Shown here one piece after another: positions 1,129 to 50,192 of a stretch of DNA of 64,000 nt (within the stretch, counting starts at the first letter, position 1; every line of letters begins with the position of its first letter). This DNA comes from an uncultured Acetobacteroides sp. GTDB taxonomy: Bacteria; Bacteroidota; Bacteroidia; Bacteroidales; ZOR0009. Below the pieces are notes generated by a model. The model saw only the letters and a program-made list of their open reading frames with translations. It was not told the origin of the DNA and did not search any database. The translations under genes were made by a program, and so were the position numbers. The DNA is taken from assembly GCF_963678165.1 (NCBI RefSeq), contig NZ_OY782755.1, positions 1,178,001 through 1,242,000 on the forward strand. The letters run 5' to 3'.

Positions 1129-1464
1129 ATGGCAAAGGAGCATTTATGAAGTGCAAAGCTCATCCGCCGCATGGCAGACGAGCATTTACATCGTGTAAAG
1201 TTCTATCGCCGCACGGCAGACGAGCATTTACATCGTGTAAAGTTCATCCGCCGCATGGCAGACGAGCATTTACATCGTGTAAAGTTCATCCGCCGCATGG
1301 CAGACGAGCATTTACATTGTGTAAAGCTCCTTCGCCGCACGGCAGTGGAGCATTTACATCGTGCAAAGCTCAATCGCCGTATGGCAACGGAGCATTTACG
1401 AAGTGTAAAGCTCAATCGCCGCATGGCAGACGAACATTTACAAAGTGAAAAGCCCTGCGCTTTT
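1129..1464. repeat. 42-bp tandem array, 8 units
   Basis: Eight head-to-tail units of exactly 42 bp begin at 1129, 1171, 1213, 1255, 1297, 1339, 1381 and 1423. The end units are more diverged. Each carries a hairpin-like core, GAGCa-TTTACA-TCG-TGTAAA-GCTC, in which an imperfect palindrome surrounds TCG. A second short palindrome, GCCGCATGGC, lies about 21 bp away, halfway round the unit. Because 42 is a multiple of 3, several frames stay open on both strands, which explains the apparent ORFs; I see no evidence of coding. There are no variable spacers, so it is not CRISPR. The core resembles that of the array at 33085-33252. Confidence 0.9.
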
Positions 1465-1702
1465 ATTGCTCCGTATTGGAGAGGCCGGAAGCGTTGAGCG
1501 TTGATCGTTGGTTGGCAAAGATTGGGGTAAAAACCATTCTTAAAATTTGTTTTGAGACTCGATGCTCGCGTCTCCACCAGTCAGAGTCAGCGTCGCGGGA
1601 TAGAGGCGCATTGCATGCGTCTCGTTGTATTGAAGAATTTGGGTTAAAAGCGAAATCCCTATGTTACCTCCTCTGCATAGCATTACTTCAACCAGATAAT
1701 TT

Positions 1703-1710
1703 TATCTTTG
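1703..1710 (+). promoter_or_regulatory. Promoter -7 element TATCTTTG for the PASTA-rluD-ddl operon
   Basis: TATCTTTG matches the Bacteroidota sigma-ABfr -7 consensus TAnnTTTG. It lies about 35 bp before the PASTA ATG at 1745, giving an inferred leader of about 28 nt. No clear TTTG -33 box is seen at the usual distance. Confidence 0.55.
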
Positions 1711-1744
1711 TCTGAATTTTAGTCGGTTTTTTAAAATTACTGGA

Positions 1745-2647
1745 ATGGATTTCGATAAAATCGCAAAAACGATCAAGGTAAAGGCTAAACGCGCATGGGC
1801 AAATGTTTATAGCCGCCAGCTGATTATAGCATTCGGGTTACTGATTCTGCTGTGGCTGGTTATGTCGCTTTTCTTGAACATTATTACCCAGCATGGGATG
1901 TCGCAGCCTGTTCCCGAGTTTAGGGGCATGATGATTGACGATGCCATTACTAAGGCTGATGATTCGAACTTGGAGATTCAGATTGCCGATTCGATCTACA
2001 TTCCCGGAAGGCAAGCCGGCATGATTATCGACCAAAACCCCAAGCCTAACGTGCAGGTCAAGAAGGGGCGTAAGATATTTGTCACCATCATAACCCGTAC
2101 GCCTAAGCTAAGCAACGTGCCCAACGTGGTTGGCTACTCGCTTCGTCAGGCTAAGGCAATTATTGAATCGCAAGGGTTTGTTGTAGGTCGCCTGGAGTAC
2201 GTAAGCGACATTGCCACCAACAACGTGCTCGAGCAGCGCTTCAACGGGCGAAGCCTGAACTCTAGCGTTAAGATTCCGGTTGGCTCTGCCATCGAGCTGG
2301 TCGTTGGGCTGTCGCAGGGCGATGTTACCGAGGTGCCCAATGTGGTAGGGCAAACCTTTGGAGGAGCCCGTTCGTCGATAGTTGAGTCGTACCTAAATGT
2401 CGGAGAAGCCCGATACGACGAGACCGTTCGCAACTCGATAGATTCGCTCGAGGCCAAGGTTTACTACCAGAATCCATTGGTAGGAACGAAGCTCGGCCTC
2501 GGTAAGAAGGTGAACGTCTACCTGTCGAAGAACACGAAGAAGAAGCCGCAGTCGTGGATGATGGTATCGCCCAATGGCGCCGATACGGTTACTACGGTTG
2601 ATACAGCAACAACCCCCGAGGAGCAATCAACGGAAGAAAATTTATAG
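1745..2647 (+). CDS. Membrane-anchored PASTA-domain protein
   Basis: A 300-residue protein with a short cytoplasmic N-terminus, one membrane helix at about residues 25-46, then three PASTA modules outside the membrane (about 50-115, 118-190 and 195-262). The second and third begin with the typical VPNVVG. A hydrophilic Thr/Glu-rich tail ends the protein. PASTA modules bind peptidoglycan stem peptides or muropeptides in other bacteria. Here there is no kinase or transpeptidase domain, which is the usual form of these stand-alone proteins in Bacteroidota. It precedes rluD by 21 bp and ddl follows, so a role near the cell wall is plausible but inferred. Confidence 0.9.
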   Translation: MDFDKIAKTIKVKAKRAWANVYSRQLIIAFGLLILLWLVMSLFLNIITQHGMSQPVPEFRGMMIDDAITKADDSNLEIQIADSIYIPGRQAGMIIDQNPKPNVQVKKGRKIFVTIITRTPKLSNVPNVVGYSLRQAKAIIESQGFVVGRLEYVSDIATNNVLEQRFNGRSLNSSVKIPVGSAIELVVGLSQGDVTEVPNVVGQTFGGARSSIVESYLNVGEARYDETVRNSIDSLEAKVYYQNPLVGTKLGLGKKVNVYLSKNTKKKPQSWMMVSPNGADTVTTVDTATTPEEQSTEENL

Positions 2648-2668
2648 GAAAATCATTAATCCCGCATA

Positions 2669-3748
2669 ATGAAGGAATACGAAGATCCTGACTTTGTCGA
2701 CGAACAGGAAGAGGAGGAGGAAGATGAGCAGTCGGGGCTGTACGAGCATTTCAGCTTCGGCGTCGATAAGGGACAGGGGATGCTTCGCATCGATAAGTGG
2801 CTTACCAACCGCATGGAGAAGGTGTCGCGCAACCGCATTCAGAGCGCTGCCGATGCCGGAAATATTCTGGTTAACGGGAAGTCGGTAAAGTCGAACTACA
2901 AGGTAAAACCGCTCGACACCATTTCCATTGTGCTTCCATATCCCCGCAGGGAACTGGAGATTATCCCCGAAAACATTCCGCTCAATATCCTTTACGAGGA
3001 TGATGATGTCATTATCATCAACAAGAAGGCAGGTATGGTGGTGCACCCTGGTCATGGCAACTACAACGGAACCTTGGTGAATGCGCTGACCTACCATCTG
3101 AAGGATCTTCCGCTGTTTCAGAGTGGGGATATGCGTGCAGGATTGGTTCACCGTATCGATAAGAATACTTCGGGCATACTTGTTATCGCTAAGAATGAGT
3201 TTGCCCACGCCTATATCGCTAAGCAGTTCTTCGACCATACCACCAAGCGCGTATACACTGCGCTGGTTTGGGGTAATCTACCCGAGGATGAGGGAACCAT
3301 CGTCGGGCATGTTGGTCGTAGCACCAGAGATCGTCTAAAGATGACCGTTTTCCCCGAAGGCGATCAAGGCAAGCATGCCGTAACCCACTATAAGGTGCTG
3401 GAGCGCCTTGGCTACGTAAACCTGATCGAGTGCCGACTCGAAACCGGGCGTACCCATCAGATTCGCGTCCACATGGAGTACCTCAAGCATCCACTGTTTA
3501 ACGACGAGCGCTACGGTGGCGACCAAATTCTTAAGGGAACTACCTTTACCAAGTACAAGCAGTTTGTGAAGAACTGCTTCGATATCTGTCCGCGCCACGC
3601 GCTGCACGCCCGCTCGTTGGGTTTTGTGCATCCCACTACCAAAAAGGAGATGTACTTCGAGAGCGAGCTGCCAAGCGATATGGCGCTGCTGCTTGATCGC
3701 TGGCGTACCTACATTGCCAGCCGTGAGCTGGAACTTGAAGAAGATTAA
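2669..3748 (+). CDS. rluD: Ribosomal large subunit pseudouridine synthase, RluD family
   Basis: A 359-residue RluA/RluD-family enzyme that isomerises specific uridines in 23S rRNA to pseudouridine. An acidic N-terminal extension (about 1-30, with long Glu/Asp runs) is followed by an S4 RNA-binding domain at about 38-95. The catalytic domain carries the signature HRIDKNTSG, with the catalytic aspartate at position 164. The later motif RTHQIRVH is also typical. It sits between the PASTA gene and ddl in a close-packed set on the same strand. The exact target uridines (RluD-type 1911/1915/1917) are inferred from family resemblance only. Confidence 0.93.
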   Translation: MKEYEDPDFVDEQEEEEEDEQSGLYEHFSFGVDKGQGMLRIDKWLTNRMEKVSRNRIQSAADAGNILVNGKSVKSNYKVKPLDTISIVLPYPRRELEIIPENIPLNILYEDDDVIIINKKAGMVVHPGHGNYNGTLVNALTYHLKDLPLFQSGDMRAGLVHRIDKNTSGILVIAKNEFAHAYIAKQFFDHTTKRVYTALVWGNLPEDEGTIVGHVGRSTRDRLKMTVFPEGDQGKHAVTHYKVLERLGYVNLIECRLETGRTHQIRVHMEYLKHPLFNDERYGGDQILKGTTFTKYKQFVKNCFDICPRHALHARSLGFVHPTTKKEMYFESELPSDMALLLDRWRTYIASRELELEED

Positions 3749-3785
3749 CGACAAGGTGCTTGCACCTACAAGAATAACTACCGTT

Positions 3786-10982: not shown

Positions 10983-11570
10983 TCAAAGTGCGAGAAATTG
11001 GGGGAATTTCACGATAAAATCGCCAGGTTTCACGAGAAAGTTGGCGATTTTATCGTGAAAGCTGCCAATTATCACCATAAAATCGGCGAGCTTATCGTGA
11101 AAGTTGCCAGCTTTCTCGTGAAAATTGGGGGGATTCTTGATCAGCTTGGCGGCTATCTCCAGAAAAATGGAGGGTTGCACGGTAAAGTTGCCGGATGTCA
11201 CATGCCATTTTGGGGGCAATGTCATAAAGTTAAGGAGTCGCTTCCCCTCGGAGTGTCATCACGTGCTTATCTCGGGGGCTAATGGCTGCCCGAAGGGTAT
11301 TTTATAGAATATATTGGGTTCCTCTTTAGATTTCGGGGCAAGTTTGGCATGACAGCGCTGGTTGAGCTCTATGTTTAACCTAATGTCATTGCATTTGGGG
11401 GAGGGCAGACTGGCTCGCTTGCCCCCTGCTTTGTGCTGTATGGCGCTTATCTTGGTAAACCCATCAGCTTTCTGGATGAATCCTTCGGGTTGCGCGAGAA
11501 ACTCGCCAGATATTCTGCTAAAGTTGGGGGATAGCATGGTGCAGGATGGTGGTGACAACCGCTTCGGCAG
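10983..11570. repeat. 21-bp tandem array, about 28 units in register, decayed in the middle
   Basis: Twelve clear 21-bp units run from 10983 to 11234, with cores such as TTTCACGAGAAA, TTTATCGTGAAA and TTTCTCGTGAAA. Five more clear units run from 11445 to 11549. The two blocks are exactly in register: 11445 minus 11004 is 441, or 21 times 21. The stretch between them keeps only faint resemblance. The core is a near-palindrome, TTTCnCGnGAAA. Some units are read better on the opposite strand. Translations give seven-residue repeats in several frames on both strands, as expected from a period divisible by 3, and look non-coding. Confidence 0.85.
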
Positions 11571-24845: not shown

Positions 24846-25172
24846 CGGATTGCAACCCGCCCTCTTCGGATTCAAATTCCCGCTATTTTGATCGGGAATG
24901 CGGCTCTTTTGATTCAGATTCCCATTATTTCGATCGAAAAAGCCTCTCTTTGAATCGAAATACTCATTCTTTCGATCGAAAGAGGGTCTCTTTGAATTCA
25001 GATTCCCATTATTTTGATTGAAAGAGGGTCTCTTTTGATTCAAATACTCATTATTTTGATCGAAAGAGCCTCTCTTTGAATCGAAATTCCCATTATTTCA
25101 ATTGAAAAAGCCGCTTTTTTGATTCAAATGCTGGCTATTTCGGCTGGGAAGGCGGCTTTTTGAATCGGCATT
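24846..25172. repeat. 42-bp tandem array with inner 21-bp phasing and palindromic cores
   Basis: Seven units in exact 42-bp register (reference positions 24890, 24932, 24974, 25016, 25058, 25100, 25142), plus a decayed unit on the left. The main core is TTTCGATCGAAA, or its variants TTTTGATCGAAA and TTTCAATTGAAA. A second core, TTTGAATTCAGA and variants, sits 21 bp away, so palindrome centres occur every 21 bp. It lies between the convergent biotin carrier and CARDB genes, both of which have terminators, so it should be largely untranscribed. Seven-residue peptide repeats in the translation are a by-product of the period. Confidence 0.9.
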
Positions 25173-31300: not shown

Positions 31301-32658
31301 TTTACGGTGTCGTACATGTCAACGTTCAGCCATCGCTTGAAGTTTAGCACCAATCCTTTGTAGAAAAGCGCGTCGAAGCTGGGCGATGTGGCGGTGTAGG
31401 GTGCCGACGAGGGGATGTTGGCATCGTAAACCCCATCTTTGGTGAGGTCGTTTCCGAGGACTTTGCTACCGCTTACTGCATTCTCGGGGTCGGGGTTGCC
31501 GTATGCCCCCGATTTGCCCATTGGCGCGGCAATTTCGAAATCGTTGGATAGGCTCCATCCCTTGTCGGTCTCAAAGTCGTCGAAGAACAGGTTCTGCTTG
31601 ATTATTCGGTTGCCGCCCGAGTTGATGGTGGCGTTGGCAAACGCGGTTCCGTTGACGGTTATGCCGCTTGCCGGAATTTCGGCATCGACGGTGTTGCCGC
31701 TTTTGGCGTCGGAGGCGATGTCGTAGGTGGCCCATAGGTAGGTGTAGCCGGTTGGTAGGCTGTAGCTGGCGGTAAGAACGGCGGAGCTGCCGCTTAGGGT
31801 GCCGCTGGCTATGGGGGTGGAGGTGTTGAATTCGGGATCCTGCGTGGCGTAAAGCGTTACACGGGTGATATCGGTTAGTTTGGTGGCGATGGCGTTTACC
31901 TTTACGCTGCTGAGAATAGCATCGCCGGTGTTGCCGGTTACCTTTAGGCGCGAGCAGAGGATTGGGTTGTTGGTCGTGCCGTTGGGGATGATGTCGGTGG
32001 TTACCCCTTCGGGGGTTGCCTCGACAAGCGACTTGGCCTGCGAGCCGGTCTCCTCGAGTTTCACCTCGTCGAGGCAGATACCCATACCCCAGCGGCTGAG
32101 CCCTTCGAAGGCGAGGTAAACGTCCTTTTGAAGCGCGTCGGAGGGGAGGTTCAGCTGGAAGTCGCGCCACTCGTTCTGCACGAAGTTGTAGGTTTGCAGG
32201 AGCCTCCATCCTCCGCTAAAGCCCACCTTATAGTAGATGCGCAGGATGTCGTTGTTTACCCCTGTTGGAACCCTCCATTCGTAGATGGTTAGCCAGAACT
32301 TTAGGGTCGGCAATACTGCGAACTTAAGGTTAAGGGGCGGGGTTATCAGCCGGGTTTGCTCCCTTCCGAAGCCTTGGGTGAAGTACCAGGCGTTGTAGGT
32401 GCCAGCCTTAGCCTTGTCGGGGTTACGGAACATGTCGTACGTTGCAGCAGGCTTCAGCAGGTTGGGGTCGGCGGGGTTGTACCCCCCATTCCGGTAGCGC
32501 CAGGGGACGCTTCCTACTACCGCTTCTTCTGTCCAGCCGTCGGGCTTTCTGCCCAGCTCAAAGCCTTCTTTTAGGTAAACTGTTTGAGCCTTTAGCTCGA
32601 TGGTAGAACAAACCAATAGGATGATGTACAGCATCATCCTTCTCATCCCTCTTTTCAT
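25339..32658 (-). CDS. Giant CARDB-repeat secreted protein with T9SS type A sorting domain
   Basis: A 2439-residue protein with a signal peptide (about 1-25, ending ELKAQ). The first 1000 residues contain MAM/jellyroll-like segments, recognisable by FEGLSRWGMGICLDEV and GWNIDDVSV. About nine CARDB-like modules follow, each beginning with phrases such as KDVAVKSI, NDLSIDL, KDIAVAAI or GDLVLQSI plus a single cysteine. Most are followed by an Ig-like segment ending YxWSTG...GxYTLTVTDANGCS. The last 80 residues (LSIYPNPASTQVSI to the end, VAKLLIIAR) are a T9SS type A sorting domain, so it should be exported and anchored on the cell surface. It probably works as an adhesin or fibre; no enzyme site is seen. 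Confidence 0.88.
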   Translation of the reverse strand: MKRGMRRMMLYIILLVCSTIELKAQTVYLKEGFELGRKPDGWTEEAVVGSVPWRYRNGGYNPADPNLLKPAATYDMFRNPDKAKAGTYNAWYFTQGFGREQTRLITPPLNLKFAVLPTLKFWLTIYEWRVPTGVNNDILRIYYKVGFSGGWRLLQTYNFVQNEWRDFQLNLPSDALQKDVYLAFEGLSRWGMGICLDEVKLEETGSQAKSLVEATPEGVTTDIIPNGTTNNPILCSRLKVTGNTGDAILSSVKVNAIATKLTDITRVTLYATQDPEFNTSTPIASGTLSGSSAVLTASYSLPTGYTYLWATYDIASDAKSGNTVDAEIPASGITVNGTAFANATINSGGNRIIKQNLFFDDFETDKGWSLSNDFEIAAPMGKSGAYGNPDPENAVSGSKVLGNDLTKDGVYDANIPSSAPYTATSPSFDALFYKGLVLNFKRWLNVDMYDTVKIQASKDNGATWATLWKNTDYTLDDSWQSASVAFPAEFDRAHNIKLRYTLSYTNGDREFTGWNIDDVSVVGNFMEKDLAMVQVVSPTSTCGSDGTSQPITLKVRNAGSKEAVAPIPVKITINGGSTIDDNITQNIAPGAEATVTLSKTFPAGLYGDLKVLATTLLPGDEDNVNDTASVNVHISKTYKTPYTTSFDTPDDWTKTGYNWMHGVSTAPNISGDSQTDKMWITNLNGNYDNNAKAILTSPCFDIIGLEKPMLEIKANYITELNKDGVTLSYSTDNGATWQPVGKNGDLWDDFWGWKDQASIASSGKIGFTGNSNGWQTISHLLPAGLNGATGVKFRFEFTSDATNGFFSGFGLNGFAIKEAPDDFGISGIVKPVTLTGAEVCGGFTDKENITFKVKNCGIKTAKKGAPVKVSFKSEYSRTNGGTVSRTEEFEETYNLPNDLPVGSEVQLVTSKTIDMNRGGFYNITVTNIDNPEYFYKTDNDKKVQMVEVKKPTVDLGPTVILGLPTPSDPLNPNNHEFDITTDADGFGYTIKWEKKIGEGIWGELANNGYKQAITSAEFVSPNNKISFKVTLTDNTPAKCSVSSTADVYKLNPNVVAEAVVSPANKCSLDKAQAITVKVTNKGQAIDVIKAGTEVTLRLKYKGALQPVHKTTTVKDLAAGESFDYIFPETFDMSAKGTYPIEVSATIPYDINTADNLAATIESYGFPAFTLTPQTQTVNALEYTYDADPSLAYKSYEWYDKTTLKTNKVIFPGPADSKVWCTVTDEHGCSTKSEATITFAVKDVAVKSINNIQTACTHEPTMKPSLTIENRGNVTIPSGTAISFEVTKNGATSTDSYTLTAALAPGASADIILNNPIDISAKGAYTVAIVAKLAGDLVADNNAQTVAAETYGLPQSSLPPTITTKDVEVTLDAGAGFTDYKWSTSDITQTILVSKDGKYDVKITDANKCSSIFSTQVAFIKNDLSIDLTSTYGTSSTVCTGTTEYPVSVKITNVGNDTPKAGTTIPVTFKVGSVEVSEVITLANDLAPNASIEYTFAKKATFTTAQPTGVSAMITLDDLDLTNNFSKVISVTVNQTPTVSLGDDIASTESSYTIVPTVTPDLASNTYLWSTAATSKTLTVTNSGAYTLTATNQGCSTSDEVMVNFNRKDIAVAAIDSPKDFCAAPEGHVVAMSVKNSGMENIATGTKFTLSYTFNGNTVSEETTLAEPMAVGKTIAYTFTQKLPALAAGSYSISATATFADDGIAANNTLTGSFKVNPAPTFTLANPITSNEAQVAIAGPAGMTKYVWSTGAETQSITATQDGSYTLTVTDANGCSSAQTTQVLFTPDIELTSVVSTALCQGTAAEPLTLTVANKSGKTIAKNTPLKVSGTINGTSFSEETLLSADLAPQASTTVTLAATLPRATAGQYPVSVTIAALTGESNTANNKTDATVTVNPSPTFTLPADIVSSNAKETIDGPAGMASYAWTKDGVSVSQDRTITVTLSGTYTLKVTNDKGCSAEASIKVQFKGGDLVLQSIVNNEKMCQSGRPVPLSLVIGNDGDTPIAKGETITVSVKANGTVKTESYVLAEDLLPKSTTTITLTTATGIPAATAGATVTAEVSVSYQYDVNPNNPAVSKTFKVVANPTFSIDTKTAADKSSATLSGSNTTLTYLWSNGAATKDITVYENSLYKVTGTNADGCILIKEIAIDYLTPKATNFITLYPAVSQTKCYDGKKAAFEVKLVNESQNITVPTGTDVKVSCSYQIAKADGKTVEYSFSGTVKLSADLKPTQSIAYSFDNMLAQGKQAPNMVEGIAGKHTITGSTEVGGIKSPVKTSQFEIYPAPTVSLGSDVLYRPLPTALTVNLSSEYAYLWSTGEKTNSIIVNAEGKYWVSVTSKNQCSASDTVEVKRGAEALTLQLSIYPNPASTQVSIVAAINTDSEITVDIYSAHGMLLESMPLTPENITKLSSYDVSHLESGSYPVVARTKDKKVAKLLIIAR

Positions 32659-33084: not shown

Positions 33085-33252
33085 GAGCTTTCACCAAGGG
33101 AGAAGTTCCGTCGGAGGACGCGGATTGAGCTTTTACCTAAGGAAAAGCTTCGTCGGAGGTCGCGGACAGAGCTTTTACCTAAGGAAAAGCTCTATCGGAA
33201 TGCGCGGATTGAACTTTCACCTATCGAAAAGCGCCATCGCCATTCGGCAGGA
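33085..33252. repeat. 42-bp tandem array, 4 units
   Basis: Four units start at 33085, 33127, 33169 and 33211. The core GAGCTTTTACCTAAGGAAAAGC is an inverted repeat, perfect over eight bases in the third unit (GAGCTTTT against AAAAGCTC). The first half of the unit resembles the array at 1129-1464 closely (GAGC, then TTTAC, then AAAG), while the second half differs. It lies in the divergent spacer between the CARDB gene and the DUF6261-like gene. Confidence 0.88.
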
Positions 33253-33329: not shown

Positions 33330-34160
33330 GTGGTGCAAAACCAATCAGCCGTTAAACCAAAACCTAATATCGATGGAAGAATTAGCAATGACCAACCTTG
33401 CGTAGCCGACGTGGGTGCTGTTGCAACAGTTATCAAGGAGGAGGTTGTGGGCACTACCCTCAAGGAGGTGAAGGAGTCGGCAGCCTACCAGGAGGTGGTG
33501 AGCGAGCAGCTGAGCTACGACGACTCCATGGCTCGCGTGCGTAAAAGCGAGAACACGCTGAGCAAGAACGAGGCCGACAAGCGCCGCGACGATGCCTACG
33601 TGGGTACGCGCAAGGCTATCGACTCACTCACCTACTCGCCCGACGAAGCGATTCGGGGTAAAGCCACCAAGCTCTTCAGCATTATGAACATGTACAGCTC
33701 GGGTGTCGAAAAGCTGCCCGACTCGAAGGAGAGTGAGTACCTGAAGATCATCATCAGCCGCATGAAGGAGCCCGAGAACTACCAGATGGCCACCGAAATC
33801 GGCATCAAGGCATTCGTGGACAACATGGACAAGTGCGAGAGCGATTTTCGTTCGGATTGGGGCGAGATGGAGAACGATAAGGAGGAGTACCGGAACAGCC
33901 AATCGGCCACGAATAGCCGCCGGAAGCTGGAGGATGCCATCAACGCGTTCTACGCCTACCTAGCCTACAACGCCAAGTACAACGCCAGCAAGGAGCAGTT
34001 TGCCCAGCTGCAGCGCGCCATCTACAGCCGCTACCTGAGCATCCGCCAGAAGTACATCGAGCGGAAGAAGAAGGAGGCCGATAAAAAGGATGGCGACAAG
34101 AAGGATTCCGACAAGAAGGACACCACCCCCAAAACCGATGGCGGCTCGGAAAAGAAGTAG
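33330..34160 (+). CDS. DUF6261-like protein, N-terminus possibly frameshifted
   Basis: Up to 276 residues from a GTG start, without signal peptide or membrane helix. The body (SENTLSKNEADKRRDDAYVG, ATKLFSIMNMYSSGVEKLP, YLSIRQKYIERKKKEADKK) is mostly helical and ends in a Lys/Asp-rich tail. The pattern resembles the Bacteroidota DUF6261 family, whose function is unknown. The start is uncertain. An ATG at 33373 in another frame gives MEELAMTNLA and then stops, which looks like a family N-terminus that has lost its frame at about 33400. No in-frame ATG exists before 33528. A terminator follows. Confidence 0.75.
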   Translation: MVQNQSAVKPKPNIDGRISNDQPCVADVGAVATVIKEEVVGTTLKEVKESAAYQEVVSEQLSYDDSMARVRKSENTLSKNEADKRRDDAYVGTRKAIDSLTYSPDEAIRGKATKLFSIMNMYSSGVEKLPDSKESEYLKIIISRMKEPENYQMATEIGIKAFVDNMDKCESDFRSDWGEMENDKEEYRNSQSATNSRRKLEDAINAFYAYLAYNAKYNASKEQFAQLQRAIYSRYLSIRQKYIERKKKEADKKDGDKKDSDKKDTTPKTDGGSEKK

Positions 34161-34641: not shown

Positions 34642-37600
34642 ATGAAGGTAAAGGCTGTATTTAATCCTTTTAGGGGCATATTGCTGTTGCTCCTATTTAC
34701 GGTTTGTGGACTGAAATCTTTCGCGCAAACGGATACTGAATTTTGGTTTGTCATTCCCGATATTACTTACGAGCATCAGATTCCAGGAGGTGAGCCTGCC
34801 AAATTCACCTTTTCTACATTCGACATGCCCAGCACCGTTACGGTGAGCATGCCGGCCAATCCATCGTTTACCCCAATCATTATAAACATTCCTGCAGGAT
34901 CGGCATACAACCTGTCCATGGATAATTATATCAATACGGCGATTAACGCCAGCAGGGCAGGGAATCCCGATGCAGAGAACCAGTATAAAACGTTACCAAC
35001 TCCCACAAACCCATCTGGGGCAAACAAGTGTGGGCTAAAGATTACGGCTACAACCCCAATTACGGCCTACTACCAGGATGCCAACATCAACAATACCGAG
35101 CTCTATGCGCTGAAGGGGAAGAATGCCCTAGGCAATCATTTCTTTGTTCCGTTTCAAAATCAGCGAACCAACCACGGGTTTTCCAATACCAATCCTGCAT
35201 ACTCCTCCATTAACATTGTGGCCACCAAGGATAATACGGTGATCCACATAAAGCCGAGCCAGGATGCCTACATGCATGGAACGTCGATTCCTGCCAATGC
35301 AGACAAGACGGTAACGCTGATGGCGGGAGAGGCAATTTGCGTTGTTCCAAAGCTCGTTGGTGGGCAGCCCGATAGGTCTGCTGCTGGGCACCTTGCCGGT
35401 ACCGAGATCTCCTCGAGCGAGGATGTTGCCATTACCATTAACGACGACTCCGTTCATGGCGATGGGGGGGGCAACTACGATATTATTGGCGACCAGCTGG
35501 TGAATATGGCTTCGCTGGGGCTTAAGTATGTAGTTCTTCGAACCAAGGCGCAGACCGATGACGACCGCATATACGTAACCGCAACAGAAGATAATACCAC
35601 GGTAAAGTTCTACAATAACAATGGTAACACTTTTTCGACAAAGGTGATAAACGCAGGGGAACAATGCGATATTGGTACGGTTGGCGACTTCTGTATTGTT
35701 GATGTAGATAAGAAGGTTACCGTGCTCCATGTTGGTGGTTATGGCGGCGAGCTTGGTGGCGCCATTCTTCCTGCCATTGATAAGTGTACGGGTAGCACCC
35801 AGGTGGCTTTTAATAAGCTGAATGATGGTGGAAAGACCTTCAATACGAATGTAATGGTGCGTACCAATGGTAAAAACGAGTTTTACCTGAATGGAGTAAA
35901 GGTAAACATGGAAGCCGCCGCTGGAAAAACGTGGACACAGCTTCCTGGTACCGACTGGTGGTTTATGCAGGTGCTCGATTGGAATACGGGCAAGTTTCCC
36001 TCCCTTAAGCAAGGTCAGGGAAATATCCTTACCAATAAGGGTGACCTCTTCCACCTTGGAGTCTTCTACGGAGCCAGTAGCGGAGGTTGTAACTACGGCT
36101 TCTTCTCGGACTTCAACGAGCTAAAGATTGATGCCAACGTTGCAGGTGTAGAAGCTGGCGAAACCAAGGTTTGCTTTGGCGCCCCAATTCAGCTTTATGC
36201 CAAAGGGGGTACAACGTATAAGTGGACTCCTGTCGATTATCTAAGCGATCCTGCCGTATTCAACCCAATTGCCAACATCCCGTTTCAAGGGGTGAAGCAG
36301 TACCAGGTTGAGGTTTCAGGAGCATGTAACATGAAGGAGGTTAAAACCATTAACCTCCAGATCTTGCCTCCGGTTAAGGCCAACTTCTCCGTCGACAACA
36401 TTACTGGATGTTCACCCCTTACGGTTAACTTTACCAATACCTCCCTGAATGCGGCCGAGTTACGCTGGAGCTTTGGCGATACCAAGGATACGGTTTCGAA
36501 TATGTTTAAGGCCACAGGCTTGGTGGAAAAGTTTAGCCATCTATACGTAAACAATACCGATACCCCCATAACCTACACCGTTCAGCTCATCGTAAAGAGC
36601 GAGTCGGGCTGTGGCGATGTTATAGAAAAGCAAATTACGGTGTACCCATCGGTGGAGGCAAAGATGAATCGAATCGATCCTACTCCGTCCTACTGTTCGC
36701 CACGTAGCCTTACCTTCGAGAACGTATCGCCGCCAACGGCGTTGCCAGCCAGCGATATTACCTATATCTGGGATTTTGGTGATGGGGGAAGCGTTAATAC
36801 CAGCGATCCAACCGTAAAGCACGACTTTTCCGCTCTAAACAAGGATAAACTGCGTTACGATGTGTCGTTGACCATGATCAACAAGTTTGGCTGTAAGTCG
36901 ATTGCGAAAGATACCATCGATGTTTACGGAAAGGTGGATGCATCCTTTTCGCTCGATAAGATAAGCGGATGTCCCGATCCAACATTTAACGCCGTGCTAA
37001 CCGATGGATCAACAGGTCCTATTAAGAAAAGGACTTGGGATTGGAGTGGCTTCTCGCAGACCCCAAGCGCCACCCTTGCCAATGCTTACGATATCTCTAC
37101 CACAAGTACTTCGGCTACTACGGTTACCCGTACTATAAAGTTGGATGTTGAAGGTGCTGGTGGATGTAAGGATTCGTATAAACAAGATGTGACAATTTAT
37201 CCGTATGTCAACGCTACCTTCTCGTTTAATGGAGGAACCGACCTCTGCGATGGGGAGATGCTTAACATAAGCAAGTTTTCGTCAGGTGGCGCTACCGATT
37301 TTCTTTGGGAATTCGGTGATGGATCCACTTCTACAGAGGCAACACCTGCGGTGGCGCACCTTTACAATAATGCTAGCTATGCTACCGCAACGTACGATGT
37401 TAGGCTTACGGTTAAATCTTCCGAGGGAGGTTGCCAAAGTACCTACGTTTCACCTACTAAGGTAAAGGTCTTTTCGCGTATCGATCCCGATTTTTCCATA
37501 AAAGATCTCGGAGGGTGTGCTCCTTTTAATGCCACCATACTAAACGTCTCTAAAGGTAATGCGTCGAATAAGTACGAGTGGAACTTTAAGGATGGTTCGG

Positions 37601-40600
37601 CTCCTGTTGTTGAAAATACGCTAGTTGCTAGCCGACAACACTTATTCACCAATAGTACAACCCTCCCCGAAAAGCATTTCGTAGAGCTTACGGTTACCAA
37701 CGAGGGTGGCTGTTTTAAGACTGTTTCTCGTTTGGCAACCGTTTATCCACAGCCAGTCGCCGACTTTACGGTTGATAACTCCATTGGTTGTAATCCGTTG
37801 CCAGTTGCCTTTACTGCTTCAACCAGTGCTAAGGAGTACGATTACCAATGGTCGTTTGATGATGGGGCTACGGGATCGCAGCCTGCCATCTCGCATACCT
37901 ACAACAACTTCGATTTTACAAATGATGCAACCTTTAATCCAACGCTCGAGGTTAGTTCTATATATGGATGTAAGGCATCTATAACAAAGCCGATAAAGGT
38001 GCATCCTTTCCTGAAGGCTGCATTTACGGTTCAGCAGTTATCTGCTTGTGCTCCTTTCGATGTTAAGGTTACTCCCAACTCGTTAGGCGCAACCTCTTAT
38101 GCTTGGGATTATGGAGATGGAAGAACCGCTACTAAGACAACAGGGGATTCGTTTACCATCAGCTACGACAATACAGGGGCAACATCTGCAACGTACCCCA
38201 TTAGCTTGGTGGCTACCAACTCTGGTGGTGCCTGTCAGTCTACCGCAAGTACTGTTCCTGTGGTGGTCGACCCTCGGGTAGTGGCTAACGGAACATTTAC
38301 AGTAGTTGACAAGTGTACGGGTGCGATTACCTTTAATAATACTTCAACAGGTGCCACCTCCTATACTTGGGACTTTGGCGATGGGCAATCGGCCAGTGTG
38401 GCCAGCACGGCTGCTCAGCAGCACACCTACGAAAATAGGACTGCATCGATAAAAACTTATACGGCAACGCTAACTGCCGAAAATGCTAAGGGGTGTAAAG
38501 CCACAAAAACGTTCAGTATAGATGTAGTTCCTCGTGTAGAATCGTCGTTTACCTACGATGTAGTCGAGAAGTGTACTCCTATGAAGATTCACATTATCAA
38601 TACCTCGTTGAATGGAACTGAATTTCAGTGGGACTACGGGCATACCGTTGGTGGTGTTGCTCAGCAGGATGTTAAAACGGTAAAGGATGCCTTTGACAGA
38701 ATTATTGATAGCGAAGATCCATCTCAGGTAAAAACCTATACCCTTAAGTTAACTACATTGGATAAATCATCGGGCTGTTCTGCGGTTTCTACAAAGGATA
38801 TTAGCGTATATCCAAGGGTAAAACCTTCTTTCACCAGCTCTATTATTGATAAGTGTACAGGAAAACTATCCTTCCAAAATGCGACTACTGGTGCAATAAC
38901 ATATACATGGAATTTTGGGGATATGAGCTCTTCGTACACAACAGATAAGCTAGATCCTGTTGCACATACCTACTTGAATAGGAGTGGTATTAATGCAACA
39001 TTTAACGCTAAGTTAATTGCTAGTAACTCTATAGGATGTTCTGCTGAATTTGCTCAGGATATTTCTATTGTTCCTCTTGTTGAGTCTAGTTTTACCATGG
39101 AGGAGTTAGAAAAGTGTACCCCAGTTAAGGTTAAGTTAACCAATACCTCGTTGAATGGTAGTGAGTTTAAATGGGATTATGGGCATACTATTGGAGGAAT
39201 TGCACAACAGGAGACTAGGGCAACAAAGGATGCTTTCGAGAAGATAATTGATAGCGAAAATCTCAATCAGATTTTGACCTACCAAATAAAGTTAACCACC
39301 CTAGATAAGGTGTCAGGTTGCTTTGCTGTCTCCTCTAAGGATTTGACCGTATATCCAAAAGTATTACCATCTTTTACCAGCGCCGTTGTTGATAAGTGTA
39401 GCGGGAAGATGTCTTTCCAAAATGCGACAACGGGTGCCACAACTTATACTTGGTTCTTTGGAGATCCAAGTTCGGCGTACTCTACAGATAAGCTAGATCC
39501 TGTATCTCATACCTATCTGAATAGAAATGCAACCAATGCAACTTTTATTGCTAAGATTGTTGCTAGCAATGCTATTGGATGTTCTGCTGAGGCTGTGAAG
39601 GATATTTCGATTGTTCCTAGAGTAGAATCGAGTTTTACGTTGGAGGAGTTGGAGGTTTGTACCCCAGTGAAGGTTAAGCTCACCAATACTTCGCTCAATG
39701 GACAGCAGTTTACGTGGAATTATGGTCATACTATTGGGGGTGCATCCCAAGTTGATGTTAAGACTGATAAAATTGCTTTTGAGAAGATTATCGATAGTGA
39801 ATCAGCTAACACAGTAGTGAACTATCCTATTAAGTTGGCGGTGCTTGACAAAAATACGCTCTGTGCCGACGATTCAACAATTAGTCTTACGGTTCACCCA
39901 AGATTGATACCTTCGTTTACTTCCGATAAAGCTGTTGGTTGTTCAGACCTACCTGTCGTACTAACTAATACATCTACAGGAGGGAATCTCTCCTTTAATT
40001 GGGACTTTAACGACGGACAGTCGGTAAAATCTTCAGATGTTACGGAGACAGTGGCTCATACATTCGTCAATAGGAATTCTGTTACGAAGAATTATAGCGT
40101 GGTACTAACCGCAACTAACGCAAAGGGGTGTAAAGCTACTGCATCTAAGTCCATAGGTGTATACCCCAAGGTTGAGGCTGCCTTCACCTTTGTTCAGTCT
40201 TCGAAGTGTACCCCATTCCCGATTGATATTGCCAACAGTTCACTTAATGGAACTGAATATTCTTGGGATTTTGGGCATGTAGTAAATGGAAATAAGCGAG
40301 ATACTCTTACAATAACAAAGGCTGGATTTAGAACATACATCTATAATGGCAATAGTTCGAACGCTCAAACATACACGTTAACGCTTACTGCTCGTGATGC
40401 TGCAACGGGATGTAATGATGTTATAACTAAAACTGTTGATGCTCAACCTGAGGTTAAATCTAGTTTTAGTTTGAGTACGGACAAGGGGTGTAATCCACTT
40501 ACAGTTTCGTTTACCAATTCGTCTACAGGTTCTTCTGCATACACCTGGAACTTTGGAAATAATACCTCTTCGGCAAGTGTTACACCTGCATCAATGGTAT

Positions 40601-42837
40601 TTACCAATAGTGATACTGTTAGCATTAAAACCTATAATATTGTGCTAACCTCTAAAAACCAAGATGGATGTACCAATGTTTCTACCAAGCGTGTAGATGT
40701 TTATCCAAAGATGTTGGCTGATTTTAGTTTAGACAAGGTAAATGGATGTACGCCTTTAACTGTTAAGGTTGCTAATGCATATCCATCTTCGGCATATCGT
40801 TACGAGTGGTCCTTAGGTTCGAACGGAACTAGCACTTCACAGCAAATTCCTGATTTGAACTTTATAAATTCGACTACGGATTATACTATTCAAACCGAAA
40901 ATTTAAAGTTAAAGGTATTCTATAAGGGAGACGCGACCTGCTATAAGGAGGTTGAGCGTTCGGTAGATATTTATCCTGGAACACGAAGCGATTTTGCAAT
41001 GGATGTTACAGAAGCTTGCAATCCATTGGTCATAAACTTTACAAACGAAACAAAGTCGTACAACAACTCTGCTTCTTATAGATGGAACTTTGGTAGCCTA
41101 GGTGGTTCTGGAGATGTTAATCCTAAGTATACATTTACTAACCTGTCAAAAACCGAGAGGGTTACGTATGCTGTTAAGCTAAAGTCCACTTCTATCCACG
41201 GATGTAGTGACTCAACGACTAAGACGGTTGTGGTTCGTCCTATCCCTAAGGCTCAAATGGCAATAAATACGGCCTCGGGTTGTGCTCCATTTAACGTGGA
41301 TGTACAGAATCTCTCTATAGGTTCTATGCCAACATACACCTTTTGGCTTGATAATGATAGAACGACATCTGTGGTAAGAAATGGTAATTCTAATGTTCAG
41401 TTTAACGTTGATAATCTTGCTGATACTCCTAAAATGACGGAGGTGTGGCTAAAGACGGTTAGCGATTTTGGTTGTAAAGACAGTATTTCTCAGAAGGTGT
41501 ATACATATCCTCATGTTACATCAGCCTTTACTTTTACACCTTCGGATGCAGGATGTAATCCGTTGACGGTGAATTTCGCGAATACCTCAAAGAATGCAAT
41601 TTACTACACTTGGGATTTTGATGATGGGGTTACTGCTCACGTTAGCTCACCTAGCCATGTGTTCCAAAATTTCAAGGAGCAGGATAGGGTGTATAATGTT
41701 AAGCTTAAAGCTAAATCGGAATATGGTTGTGAGCATGTGTCATCGAAAGATTTTACGGTATTCTCGGCTCCTATTGCCTACTTTACCATAGATCCACCTT
41801 TGCGTACTTTCCCAGATGCTTCGTTCCTGTTTAACAACCAGACAACTCCAAAGGCAATAAATTGGAACTACGAATGGACTTTTGGAGATGGAGGCAAGTA
41901 CATTGGCGTAGATCCTCCTGTATATACTTATAAGACATGGGGCGATCAGGGAAATGACTATAAGTACAATGTAACGCTGAAGGTGTCGAATGGAAACTGT
42001 AAGGATGAGATGACACAGTTCCTTTATCTAAAGCCTGCTATTCCTGTTTCTATTTTCTCGTCTAGCGTTGGTAGTAGCTGTTCTCCTTTGGAAACTCAGT
42101 TTGTTCATCAGGCGAAGTTCTATAAGTCTATTGAGTGGAATTTCGGAGATGGAACAACTTCAACTGAGGATAGCCCATATCACGTGTTCAGAACTCCTGG
42201 AAAGTATCACGTTCAGTTAACCGTAAAAGGTGACGGTGGTAATTCTTACTCTTATACTACATTGGAGGTCTTCCCTAATCCTGTAGCAAGTTTTAAACTT
42301 GCTCCTGGCGAGGCAATGCTGCCCGAGGCTCGTGTACAGTTCTATAATACGTCAATCGAAGGAAAAGATTACGCTTGGGATTTTGGAGATGTGCTAGGTA
42401 CGTCAACGGAGAAGAACCCTACATACAGCTATAAGAAGTTGGGTAACTACAATGTGCGCCTAAAGGTGACTTCCGAGAATGGTTGTGTGGACGATACGTT
42501 GGTAAAAGCTGCGGTTAAGGTAGTAGGCGAGGGTGTACTTAAATTCCCCAATGCTTTCATTCCGAACCTCTACGGGGGGAATGGCGGTACCTACGAGGTG
42601 CCCGACTACAAAAACGAGGTATTCCATCCTACGAGCGAGGGTGTGGTTGTATACAAACTATTGATCTATAATCGTTGGGGTGAGAAGTTGTTCGAAAGCG
42701 ATGAGATCGGCAAAGGCTGGGATGGCTACTACAAGGGTAAACTCTGTGAGCAGGGTGTATACGTGTACAGAGCTACGGGCCGATTTACCAACGGAAAGAC
42801 GTTCGACCTTAGAGGTGACGTTACGCTACTTCGATAG
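34642..42837 (+). CDS. Giant PKD-repeat surface protein with T9SS type B sorting domain
   Basis: A 2731-residue protein. A signal peptide (about 1-28, ending KSFAQ) is followed by a 480-residue N-terminal region similar to IgGFc-binding-protein-like domains (TDTEFWFVIP, VTATEDNTTVKFYNN). More than twenty PKD modules come next, each with a WDFGDG-type motif and one or two cysteines. Residues about 1299-1660 contain a near-exact tandem duplication with a 181-residue period. The last 90 residues (FPNAFIPN, YNRWGEKLFESDEIGKGWDGYYKG, QGVYVYRATG) are the gliding-motility/T9SS type B C-terminal domain. I used the ATG at 34642, not a TTG two codons earlier. PorP/SprF is encoded 12 bp downstream, as is usual for type B cargo. 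Confidence 0.9.
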   Translation: MKVKAVFNPFRGILLLLLFTVCGLKSFAQTDTEFWFVIPDITYEHQIPGGEPAKFTFSTFDMPSTVTVSMPANPSFTPIIINIPAGSAYNLSMDNYINTAINASRAGNPDAENQYKTLPTPTNPSGANKCGLKITATTPITAYYQDANINNTELYALKGKNALGNHFFVPFQNQRTNHGFSNTNPAYSSINIVATKDNTVIHIKPSQDAYMHGTSIPANADKTVTLMAGEAICVVPKLVGGQPDRSAAGHLAGTEISSSEDVAITINDDSVHGDGGGNYDIIGDQLVNMASLGLKYVVLRTKAQTDDDRIYVTATEDNTTVKFYNNNGNTFSTKVINAGEQCDIGTVGDFCIVDVDKKVTVLHVGGYGGELGGAILPAIDKCTGSTQVAFNKLNDGGKTFNTNVMVRTNGKNEFYLNGVKVNMEAAAGKTWTQLPGTDWWFMQVLDWNTGKFPSLKQGQGNILTNKGDLFHLGVFYGASSGGCNYGFFSDFNELKIDANVAGVEAGETKVCFGAPIQLYAKGGTTYKWTPVDYLSDPAVFNPIANIPFQGVKQYQVEVSGACNMKEVKTINLQILPPVKANFSVDNITGCSPLTVNFTNTSLNAAELRWSFGDTKDTVSNMFKATGLVEKFSHLYVNNTDTPITYTVQLIVKSESGCGDVIEKQITVYPSVEAKMNRIDPTPSYCSPRSLTFENVSPPTALPASDITYIWDFGDGGSVNTSDPTVKHDFSALNKDKLRYDVSLTMINKFGCKSIAKDTIDVYGKVDASFSLDKISGCPDPTFNAVLTDGSTGPIKKRTWDWSGFSQTPSATLANAYDISTTSTSATTVTRTIKLDVEGAGGCKDSYKQDVTIYPYVNATFSFNGGTDLCDGEMLNISKFSSGGATDFLWEFGDGSTSTEATPAVAHLYNNASYATATYDVRLTVKSSEGGCQSTYVSPTKVKVFSRIDPDFSIKDLGGCAPFNATILNVSKGNASNKYEWNFKDGSAPVVENTLVASRQHLFTNSTTLPEKHFVELTVTNEGGCFKTVSRLATVYPQPVADFTVDNSIGCNPLPVAFTASTSAKEYDYQWSFDDGATGSQPAISHTYNNFDFTNDATFNPTLEVSSIYGCKASITKPIKVHPFLKAAFTVQQLSACAPFDVKVTPNSLGATSYAWDYGDGRTATKTTGDSFTISYDNTGATSATYPISLVATNSGGACQSTASTVPVVVDPRVVANGTFTVVDKCTGAITFNNTSTGATSYTWDFGDGQSASVASTAAQQHTYENRTASIKTYTATLTAENAKGCKATKTFSIDVVPRVESSFTYDVVEKCTPMKIHIINTSLNGTEFQWDYGHTVGGVAQQDVKTVKDAFDRIIDSEDPSQVKTYTLKLTTLDKSSGCSAVSTKDISVYPRVKPSFTSSIIDKCTGKLSFQNATTGAITYTWNFGDMSSSYTTDKLDPVAHTYLNRSGINATFNAKLIASNSIGCSAEFAQDISIVPLVESSFTMEELEKCTPVKVKLTNTSLNGSEFKWDYGHTIGGIAQQETRATKDAFEKIIDSENLNQILTYQIKLTTLDKVSGCFAVSSKDLTVYPKVLPSFTSAVVDKCSGKMSFQNATTGATTYTWFFGDPSSAYSTDKLDPVSHTYLNRNATNATFIAKIVASNAIGCSAEAVKDISIVPRVESSFTLEELEVCTPVKVKLTNTSLNGQQFTWNYGHTIGGASQVDVKTDKIAFEKIIDSESANTVVNYPIKLAVLDKNTLCADDSTISLTVHPRLIPSFTSDKAVGCSDLPVVLTNTSTGGNLSFNWDFNDGQSVKSSDVTETVAHTFVNRNSVTKNYSVVLTATNAKGCKATASKSIGVYPKVEAAFTFVQSSKCTPFPIDIANSSLNGTEYSWDFGHVVNGNKRDTLTITKAGFRTYIYNGNSSNAQTYTLTLTARDAATGCNDVITKTVDAQPEVKSSFSLSTDKGCNPLTVSFTNSSTGSSAYTWNFGNNTSSASVTPASMVFTNSDTVSIKTYNIVLTSKNQDGCTNVSTKRVDVYPKMLADFSLDKVNGCTPLTVKVANAYPSSAYRYEWSLGSNGTSTSQQIPDLNFINSTTDYTIQTENLKLKVFYKGDATCYKEVERSVDIYPGTRSDFAMDVTEACNPLVINFTNETKSYNNSASYRWNFGSLGGSGDVNPKYTFTNLSKTERVTYAVKLKSTSIHGCSDSTTKTVVVRPIPKAQMAINTASGCAPFNVDVQNLSIGSMPTYTFWLDNDRTTSVVRNGNSNVQFNVDNLADTPKMTEVWLKTVSDFGCKDSISQKVYTYPHVTSAFTFTPSDAGCNPLTVNFANTSKNAIYYTWDFDDGVTAHVSSPSHVFQNFKEQDRVYNVKLKAKSEYGCEHVSSKDFTVFSAPIAYFTIDPPLRTFPDASFLFNNQTTPKAINWNYEWTFGDGGKYIGVDPPVYTYKTWGDQGNDYKYNVTLKVSNGNCKDEMTQFLYLKPAIPVSIFSSSVGSSCSPLETQFVHQAKFYKSIEWNFGDGTTSTEDSPYHVFRTPGKYHVQLTVKGDGGNSYSYTTLEVFPNPVASFKLAPGEAMLPEARVQFYNTSIEGKDYAWDFGDVLGTSTEKNPTYSYKKLGNYNVRLKVTSENGCVDDTLVKAAVKVVGEGVLKFPNAFIPNLYGGNGGTYEVPDYKNEVFHPTSEGVVVYKLLIYNRWGEKLFESDEIGKGWDGYYKGKLCEQGVYVYRATGRFTNGKTFDLRGDVTLLR

Positions 42838-44551: not shown

Positions 44552-44578
44552 CGTATTTTGTACTTTAAATAACAAGTT

Positions 44579-44608
44579 AAGGGCTACCGAAATTCGGTAG
44601 CCCTTTTT
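44579..44608 (+). terminator. Rho-independent terminator after the OmpH-like gene
   Basis: AAGGGCTACCGAA and TTCGGTAGCCCTT form a perfect stem around a single A (the closing pairs probably open into a small loop), followed by a T run. Confidence 0.93.
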
Positions 44609-44689
44609 GCATGCGGTTAAACGGGCTTTTGCTTGGTTTAATTTAAGGAATAGCCTACTTTAGGGAAACGTATTTCTAAAGAGTGAGAA

Positions 44690-47383: not shown

Positions 47384-47410
47384 GGTTTGCTTGCGAGAGG
47401 CTAGAAAATA

Positions 47411-47440
47411 AAAGGCGGGCACGTTGTGGTGTCCGCCTTT
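47411..47440. terminator. Bidirectional terminator between ATPase and DivIC-like genes
   Basis: AAAGGCGGGCAC against GTGTCCGCCTTT (one G-T pair) with a six-base loop. A-rich flanks on the left and T-rich flanks on the right suit both directions. Confidence 0.88.
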
Positions 47441-47442
47441 CT

Positions 47443-47811
47443 TTATTGCTTTACGATGAAAATCTTCTCATCGGCCTTCTTCATCAGGTACTGCTCGCGC
47501 GCGTACTTCTCCAGATTCTCGTTGTTGGTGGTCAACTCCTTTATCCGGGTGCTATCCTCGGTAATCTTGGTCTTGTAGTACTCCTTTTCGTCCTTCATCT
47601 CGCGAATGGCCGATGCGTTGGTCATCATGTCAACCAGGTTGTAGCGGTCGAAAAAGGTGAGCCATACCAGAAAAACTACGATGGTAAGCACGTACTTATT
47701 CCGCAATACAACGAGCGACTGCACGAGGTAGTACTTTACGGGATGCTCGCTCTTCTGCTTGCCCGTCATTCCTTTAGCGTCTTTTTCTTCGGCTTCTTTC
47801 ATGGATTGCAT
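47443..47811 (-). CDS. FtsB/DivIC-like septum formation protein
   Basis: A 122-residue bitopic protein with a charged cytoplasmic N-terminus (about 1-37), one membrane helix (VLTIVVFLVWLTFF, about 42-56) and a periplasmic coiled coil (about 65-105). It ends with YLMKKADEKIFIVKQ, the usual C-terminus of DivIC/FtsB proteins. These form the FtsQLB-type divisome link that activates septal peptidoglycan synthesis. The ATG at 47802 (MKEAEEKD) is an alternative start. The gene is single. Confidence 0.9.
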   Translation of the reverse strand: MQSMKEAEEKDAKGMTGKQKSEHPVKYYLVQSLVVLRNKYVLTIVVFLVWLTFFDRYNLVDMMTNASAIREMKDEKEYYKTKITEDSTRIKELTTNNENLEKYAREQYLMKKADEKIFIVKQ

Positions 47812-47869
47812 CTAATAATGCGAATATAGCAAGAAACCGCGTAAAAAGTTATGCGCAATTAAAGAACAT

Positions 47870-47995
47870 GAAGCCGCTTGGTGGAATACTGATTTGCTGG
47901 TGAAAATTAAAGATTGGCGGGTAAACGTGGCTGTTTTGTTTGGGAAATCGATAGGTTTGTTGGTGAAAGTCACAAATTGGTGTGCAGTATAATCG
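47870..47995. repeat. 21-bp tandem array, about 6 units
   Basis: Units start at 47870, 47891, 47912, 47933, 47954 and 47975. Cores such as TTTGCTGGTGAAA and TTTGTTGGTGAAA match the GTGAAA half of the larger array at 10983-11570. The first and last units are weak. Two copies of an AAAACGATTTGT motif lie 22 bp apart just after it. Confidence 0.75.
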
Positions 47996-50191: not shown

Positions 50192-50192
50192 C

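Follow-up and report, generated by a model that had tools for sequence, protein, structure and literature searches.

Tandem arrays in the window

The stretch of DNA analysed here (the window) comprises 64,000 nucleotides from an uncultured Acetobacteroides sp. and carries five tandem-repeat arrays, the fourth of which lies beside a gene of the DUF6261 family:

Array 1, 1127..1464, no strand: roughly eight units of 42 bp bearing a GAGC-TTTAC/GTAAA-GCTC dyad; a solo array
Array 2 core, 10983..11160, no strand: 21-bp units, adjacent ones oppositely oriented (TTTCACGA/TCGTGAAA)
Array 2 tail, 11161..11570, no strand: decayed 21-bp periodicity
Array 3, 24846..25172, no strand: 42-bp units with two dyads offset by 21 bp
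Array 4, 33085..33252, no strand: four 42-bp units immediately 5' of the DUF6261 gene
DUF6261 gene (PF19775), 33330..34160, + strand: 276 aa, array-linked family; predicted mostly helical in a low-confidence model
Array 5, 47870..47995, no strand: degenerate 21-bp array, under the Tandem Repeats Finder threshold

Periodicity was measured as the combined match at lags 21, 42 and 63 and compared with shuffles, with periods 12-35 scanned. The combined match was 0.465 in array 1 (z 15.1), 0.569 in the array 2 core at 10983-11160 (z 15.0), 0.588 in array 3 (z 21.9), 0.397 in array 4 (z 6.8) and 0.452 in array 5 (z 6.5), while the array 2 tail at 11161-11570 gave 0.312 (z 4.3), equalled by 1 of 1000 shuffles over periods 12-35. 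A preliminary description had reported five stretches between genes, periodic at 21 or 42 bp. Both points are borne out: periodicity exceeds chance in all five (z 4.3-21.9), with 21 the best period among 12-35 in each, and all are intergenic relative to called genes, a gene call at 10983-11201 that overlaps array 2 having been set aside before placement was scored. Tandem Repeats Finder recovers arrays 1-4 (1127-1460, 11022-11125, 24862-25167 and 33085-33239) and does not report array 5 in the window. A CRISPR array consists of near-identical repeats with unique spacers between them; in the window arrays one unit follows another head to tail with no spacer, and this reading was rejected.

A genome-wide population

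The observation made in the window is confirmed, and the class lies mostly elsewhere in the genome. In a sample of 1.484 Mb of the 4.30-Mb genome, 99 arrays of at least 80 bp resemble those of the window, a density of about 67 per Mb by the criteria of this analysis, mostly with minimum periods of 21 (41 arrays), 42 (31), 41 (9), 43 (6) or 22 bp (5). Among arrays of at least 80 bp of any period in this sample, 95 of 110 have a minimum period of 20-23 or 41-43; periods around 21 and 42 are thus far commoner than neighbouring and other ones in the comparison that the preliminary description had proposed. Outside the detected arrays, a further 27 segments of 150 bp exceed z 4, with a best period of 21 in 18, and the top six lags of the intergenic autocorrelation are all multiples of 21, without exception. 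The spacing of 8-15 kb noted in the window agrees with the mean array density, and the arrays are spread evenly on the chromosome (chi2 8.1, df 9; 85 arrays, 61 stretches).

Nor do the arrays lie mostly inside genes, so that neither of the two outcomes named as refuting the preliminary description occurred: none of the 82 arrays of at least 100 bp is gene-internal, a count made after removal of 12 gene calls consisting largely of array sequence and including five arrays at stretch edges. The median distance from array to gene start is 242 bp and to gene end 113 bp; convergent regions are over-represented (30 of 77, compared with 55 of 277 among intergenic regions at least 250 bp long), and between tandem gene pairs the array is closer to the gene 3' end in 24 of 33 cases. 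Coding repeats, in which 21 and 42 nt would represent 7 and 14 codons, find some encouragement in the presence of at least one open frame in 82 of 96 arrays, compared with 64.1 in unit-permuted arrays, an excess that shrinks against dinucleotide shuffles (3.48 versus 3.22 open frames per 42-bp unit). That reading is nevertheless scarcely credible, as a codon-position pattern of variation is absent (p<=0.05 in 1 of 96 arrays), periods of 41, 43 and 22 are not divisible by 3, and multiple frames on both strands are open simultaneously.

Symmetry without a common sequence

The family is defined by pitch and dyads rather than by sequence, as had been suggested. The 129 arrays from three species fall into 84 sequence groups, and 55 have no relative within the sample, while dyad scores average 5.97 against 4.10 in shuffles, with p<=0.05 for 29 of 80 arrays. 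Units of 42 bp have 47% self-identity at a shift of 21, compared with 23-29% at shifts 1-20 (79 units). The TTT...AAA core attributed to most units is enriched (22 of 124 unit consensuses, where shuffles predict 7.7) but belongs to a minority. Of 76 double changes within arrays 40 retain pairing, as do 47 of 81 between related arrays, where one third would be 27 and the pairs, counted in both directions, are not independent. Dyad symmetry is thus enriched and partly maintained through compensatory change.

Transcribed hairpin arrays, serving as 3' UTR stabilisers, terminators or sponges, would fit these dyads and the proximity to gene 3' ends in tandem pairs. Mismatches on the sense strand are even (49 G-T and 55 A-C), without the G-U excess expected of RNA, a balance more in keeping with DNA than with RNA; no Rfam family matches in the window at gathering thresholds, and the hairpin reading is very unlikely. 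As for terminator hairpins as seeds of arrays, a terminator-like hairpin judged by eye in L185 is separate from the array, and the candidate was dropped.

A common 21-bp motif initially seemed strong, with an alignment score of 312.2 against 267.6 (sd 4.7) for permuted units; it did not stand up when compared with real intergenic 21-mers (425.3 and 437.3 versus 409.7, sd 8.9), nor in held-out arrays (2.415 versus 2.375 for control intergenic DNA, sd 0.30, n=24). Intrinsic bending through phased A-tracts, raised in the preliminary description, was not upheld: the power of A/T content inside units at 10.5 bp is 0.69 of that in control intergenic DNA (z -2.4), and curved A-tract DNA was rejected. 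Purine content at 10.5 bp is mildly raised (z 3.0), and A/T content has a 7-bp harmonic. The 120 control 42-mers containing N were excluded from the motif tests against intergenic DNA and retained in the A/T harmonic test. There is no support for a coding, RNA-hairpin, shared-motif or A-tract-curvature reading. The same description placed every core on one face of the helix, which would be impossible along an entire 22-, 41- or 43-bp array; such periods drift by 0.5-1 bp with every 21 bp, and a geometric requirement, if there is one, would apply only between neighbours.

Turnover between species

Of 16 places comparable in the sister species G002, eight have an array whose period class is unchanged but whose units differ, and the other eight lack an array. 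Array 1 is retained at the same place (L137:14493-14781), at the place of array 3 the period is again 42 bp but most of the unit differs (L136:3691-4136), and the counterpart of array 4 lies at L135:15406-15678. Where an array is kept, place and period class persist as units are rewritten. Five empty sites were viewed, and neither clean insertion nor target duplication was evident.

Such turnover, together with private array sequences, would be expected of neutral satellites, that is, functionless arrays made and rewritten by an error of replication or repair peculiar to this lineage. The error would be slippage or template switching where hairpins form, constrained by the pitch of the helix, and quasi-palindrome correction would preserve the dyads. 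The distance from gene starts and the enrichment of convergent regions agree with this account, as does the lower identity of units to their consensus at array ends (0.846, against 0.865-0.877 elsewhere), which unequal exchange predicts. Slippage alone leaves the tight range of periods unexplained, and the account does not predict that arrays should be linked to a single gene family and only 5' of it, as described below; we regard neutral satellites as a real but less likely possibility. Among candidate generators, reverse transcriptase was rejected because RVT_1 has no match in G000, G001, G002 or G031. Loss of the hairpin nuclease SbcCD was set aside because SbcD is above cut-off in these four genomes, and SbcD as array maker because G041 has arrays and no SbcD match.

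Linkage to DUF6261 and HTH genes

The neighbour of array 4 scores 67 bits against PF19775 (Pfam cut-off 27), and all 21 aligned paralogues match that family at E<=1. The link of array 4 to this most array-linked family is absent from the preliminary description. Among 98 gene families examined within this genus, DUF6261 ranks first, with a 5' array at 16 of 21 called genes (p 1.4e-17) and a 3'-side array at none of the 21. Restricted to genes with a 5' gap of at least 250 bp, the counts are 16 of 20 against 64 of 491; taking the own genome by itself gives 10 of 13, compared with 58 of 1094. The 42-bp type accounts for 15 of 16 DUF6261-linked arrays and 47 of 113 others. Five array-bearing genomes hold 38, 33, 18, 12 and 7 copies of DUF6261, compared with 0-1 in seven others, so that copy number largely tracks array presence. 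Small Cro/C1-type HTH genes are also array-linked, more weakly than DUF6261: five of six HTH_26 genes have an array, or five of eight in a looser search.

Several observations weigh against a pairing of DUF6261 with the arrays. Of the 99 own-genome arrays, only 10 adjoin a DUF6261 gene; relatives elsewhere exist for 10 of 16 DUF6261-linked arrays and 64 of 113 others (p 0.79); isoelectric points range from 5.3 to 9.7; G040 has a 43-bp array and no DUF6261; and G004 has one DUF6261 gene, its sole repeat being of 21/51 bp. Among paralogues, protein identity is unrelated to unit similarity (117 pairs, Spearman 0.05, p 0.60) and to period (p 0.23). Sequence comparison of DUF6261 revealed no resemblance to a known DNA-binding fold, and the single-sequence structure model of the window protein (mean pLDDT 42.7) is inadequate for fold search.

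Alternatively, DUF6261 could belong to a mobile or copying module of the RAYT/REP kind, in which the protein helps to make or spread its array and so gives rise to the solo ones. This would match two own-genome searches in which one of three and one of four places adjoin a catalogued DUF6261 gene, the rest being solo. The absence of nuclease or transposase similarity in sequence comparison, the empty sites viewed in the sister species and the arrays lacking relatives in the sample argue against such a module, which appears improbable. Mobile-DNA origin was likewise rejected, as the window DUF6261 protein has no relatives in the viral contigs or plasmids searched.

Relation to known repeat systems

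REP/BIME elements with RAYT genes (REPINs) are extragenic palindromes that share a tag sequence; some copies adjoin a protein gene, and others stand alone. The arrays resemble them in all of this except the tag, and differ in having long head-to-tail runs at fixed pitch, DUF6261 as partner and no common tag. Membership was rejected on the shared tag, given the 84 groups and the failure of the 21-bp motif, and on the Y1_Tnp transposase (PF01797), which has no match in array-bearing G001, compared with seven in G000 and three in G002; RAYT as generator was dropped on the same absence.

A prokaryotic satellite is a tandem repeat of four or more units of 10-200 nt. The arrays belong to this class as non-coding head-to-tail repeats, and at least four units are seen in window arrays 1-4. 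In Subirana and Messeguer 2019 (PMC6749651), satellites are non-coding tandem repeats dispersed through genomes, mutually unrelated in species such as Methanobrevibacter ruminantium, and few in most bacteria, the densest bacterial entry listed in Table 1 having 23 per Mb. Their repeat length varies, coding often making it a multiple of 3. The present arrays are similarly scattered and non-coding, but reach about 67 per Mb (each study by its own differing criteria), keep a pitch near 21 bp and are linked to a gene family. Borg tandem repeats (PMC9879509) have an own unit per array, fast evolution, independent origin and often an intergenic position, like the present arrays in their array-specific, fast-evolving units; the units of Borgs, however, are perfect and A-rich and differ in length, which is divisible by three in only 14-38% of the intergenic ones, whereas those here are imperfect, dyad-rich and of a single pitch. 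The heptamer repeats in prokaryote intergenic DNA treated in the SPADE paper (PMC6344855) recall the present arrays in their intergenic position, and 7 bp is both a third of 21 and the period of the A/T harmonic; here, however, arrays of at least 80 bp include no 28-, 35- or 56-bp class, and units are not 7-bp repeats. A literature search with subscription journals outside its coverage found no description of such arrays and, for DUF6261, only a mention in one unrelated paper.

Interpretation and significance

The interpretation offered in the preliminary description receives partial support overall. Array spacing and DUF6261 linkage hint at an unfamiliar DNA-organising or regulatory system, and on gene linkage an operator- or partition-type protein-bound array is a candidate class. 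The reading we tentatively favour, at somewhat less than even confidence, is that the arrays are packed dyad sites whose partners are DUF6261 or HTH proteins, with further copies standing alone and protein binding putative. The dyad sites are closely packed at about 21 bp centre to centre, two helical turns, and two dyad kinds often alternate, giving a full repeat of 42 bp. Each linked protein, or a complex containing it, may line the array upstream of its gene with adjacent dimers and control that gene, and may also occupy same-family solo arrays elsewhere, which mostly lie between gene ends. Within an array, units would be homogenised by unequal exchange, so that sequence drifts fast, and contact among adjacent dimers would maintain the dyad and the two-turn pitch.

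With more doubt, multi-copy DUF6261 and some small HTH proteins, each with a private two-turn dyad array and solo arrays, might form a private network of conserved geometry and free sequence, an undescribed bacterial system. Tandem repeats are usually classed by sequence, with variable unit length; here length and symmetry are constant and sequence changes, even at orthologous places. The arrays therefore provide a natural data set on what determines repeat length, be it the footprint of a protein, the pitch of the helix or the behaviour of a polymerase, and DUF6261, uncharacterised and highly amplified (38 copies in one genome), gains a first testable partner. If the network reading is true, the conserved property would be the geometry of private arrays, not their sequence.

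Periodicity of the arrays in the window and across the genome

The preliminary description had assigned the intergenic arrays of the window a unit of exactly 21 or 42 bp, and when each was tested separately, the best period was indeed 21 bp in 5/5. Degenerate though they are, array 5 and the array 2 tail are significantly periodic.

1127..1464, array 1
10983..11570, array 2 (core to 11160, tail from 11161)
24846..25172, array 3
33085..33252, array 4
33330..34160 (+), DUF6261 (PF19775) gene, 276 aa
47870..47995, array 5

The host genome is a single contig of 4,298,710 bp, of which 71 stretches of 20 kb were sampled together with the window (1.484 Mb). With any period admitted, the minimum period was 20-23 or 41-43 in 95 of 110 arrays of at least 80 bp, so that the proposed prevalence of 21/42 bp over other periods extends to the genome sample. 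The 21-bp series comprises 99 arrays covering 25,433 bp of this sample, which extrapolates to about 290 in the whole genome. In the intergenic DNA (255 kb) of the first 1.264 Mb sampled, the strongest autocorrelation lags were 42, 84, 126, 21, 63 and 105 (z 11.8 to 5.3), followed in seventh place by lag 6 (z 3.5). Additionally, 18/27 further periodic segments located outside the detected arrays had a best period of 21.

Genomic placement and coding potential

The described position between genes was upheld: none of 82 arrays of at least 100 bp lay inside genes called with a simple caller made for this analysis, 12 mostly-array gene calls having been dropped beforehand. These arrays occupy tandem (33), convergent (30) and divergent (14) gene intervals or stretch edges (5), at a median of 113 bp from array edge to gene end and 242 bp to gene start. 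Since 21 and 42 are both divisible by three, coding was tested; variation followed no codon-position pattern, with 1 of 96 arrays at the p<=0.05 level. Open frames were somewhat more frequent than in permuted arrays (82/96 vs 64.1), and their excess over dinucleotide shuffles was small.

Near arrays 3 and 4, positions 25339-32637 and 34642-42837 of the window encode very large, secreted-type proteins bearing tails for type IX secretion (Por_Secre_tail; CHU_C with PKD repeats). A run of minus-strand genes at 48063-63985, one of which (60001-61971) encodes a PhageMin_Tail protein, has the appearance of a prophage segment.

Unit anatomy and its rewriting

Unit sequences are mostly unrelated between arrays, 129 arrays forming 84 groups, 55 of them single. 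Dyad symmetry reached p<=0.05 in 29/80 arrays, and 42-bp units show 47% self-identity at shift 21. Several array families retain one stable dyad, the second being rewritten but still palindromic; the related arrays L014, L167, L182 and L146 have TAATCGGAACCG in common, and the partner dyad is CCCGA/TCGGG, CTACCGTA/TACGGTAG or CTTCCGTA/TACGGAAG. Pairing was kept in 40/76 double changes within arrays and in 47/81 between related arrays, where the cases are not independent; both shares exceed one third. G-T and A-C mismatches are about equally frequent on the sense strand (49:55), and therefore nothing points to RNA.

A/T content within units has additional harmonics at 7 bp (z 5.1) and 3.5 bp (z 4.1). 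The own genome also contains intergenic TTAGAC-type 7/14-bp microsatellites (e.g. L009:14895-14925 and L011:6360-6391), with a minimum period of 14 in 16 short-period arrays and 7 in 5 (1.264 Mb); a link between these and the 7-bp harmonic is possible.

In the sister species G002, 8/16 comparable places hold an array of equal period class with altered units, most clearly at the counterpart of array 3, and 8/16 hold none. The matching classes are 22-22, 41-41, 43-series with 43-series, and 42 or 21 with 42 or 84. In the further species G001, the single comparable place holds no array.

Distribution in other genomes

The genus of the host includes two other sequenced species: G002, with 24 arrays in 500 kb sampled, and G001, with 6 in 200 kb, one of them a 7-bp microsatellite scoring at 21 too. 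Judged by its carboxyltransferase gene, the closest named record is Perlabentimonas gracilis (84%); in Perlabentimonas, 43 kb held no array of at least 60 bp. Among 80 other records (1.35 Mb around one gene), only L036 (MAG.294) bears an array; its genome, G041, contains several more in 121 kb, on contigs picked partly for holding matches. Eight more-distant genomes were sampled over 400 kb in total; the 80 kb from G031 contained arrays with periods of 41, 22/43 and 24/46 bp, and a single 43-bp array came from G040. The trait is therefore recurrent in the order yet uncommon, with a pitch spread of 20.5-24 bp.

Linkage to DUF6261 genes

Array 4 lies directly on the 5' side of a DUF6261 gene. 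This family has 38 copies in the own genome (G000), 33 in G002, 18 in G001, 12 in G041, 7 in G031 and 1 in G004, and none in G040, G026, G033, G017, G009 and G042. Of the 22 DUF6261 genes that a local profile located in the stretches of the three species, 16 lie within 501 bp of an array, which is on the 5' side of the gene in 16/16. Among the six array-less genes, two show sub-threshold upstream periodicity of 20-21 bp (L259, z 7.3; L248, z 6.2), signals at 24 or 28 bp (z 5.2-5.4) precede three others, including L157, which has a 21-bp signal too (z 5.1), and one shows no upstream periodicity. The 28-bp signals precede L157:11717 (z 5.4) and L147:14197 (z 5.2), where 21/42-bp arrays would be expected.

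DUF6261 was not chosen blindly, being prompted by array 4, but its rank in an open linkage test of 98 gene families (1616 called genes) was blind: it came first (16/21, p 1.4e-17), followed by a small Cro/C1-type HTH family (5/6, p 2.1e-6) and, third, by a family of 155-aa proteins whose arrays lie on the 3' side (4/4, p 5.4e-5, with a likely orthologous pair among them). The genes of the last family (L135:1367, L143:6579, L159:8207 and L242:16548) have no Pfam match and end in a Lys-rich tail. DUF6261 linkage persisted with a long-upstream-gap control (16/20 vs 64/491) and in the own genome alone (10/13 vs 58/1094, p 9.8e-11). The main rival explanation, a neutral mutational process under helical constraint that makes arrays, would require a separate reason for this gene linkage.

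A possible mode of action

A linked DUF6261 or HTH protein could act on its own upstream array, although most arrays (89/99) have no DUF6261 neighbour, DUF6261 paralogue similarity predicts neither unit nor period, and DUF6261-linked arrays are no richer in relatives than others. Furthermore, DUF6261 orthologues are 80-82% identical, yet their units are just 48-60% alike, a discrepancy that speaks against tight recognition of sequence and would suit recognition of shape or pitch, or absence of recognition. Were the linked protein to act on its array, dimers adjacent on DNA at two-turn spacing would fix pitch and dyad and leave the sequence free, provided that sequence demands were weak or quickly co-evolving, and units could be rewritten jointly via unequal exchange. 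On this model, DUF6261 and HTH genes would have a self-control site in their 5' array, and arrays without such a neighbour may be further targets.
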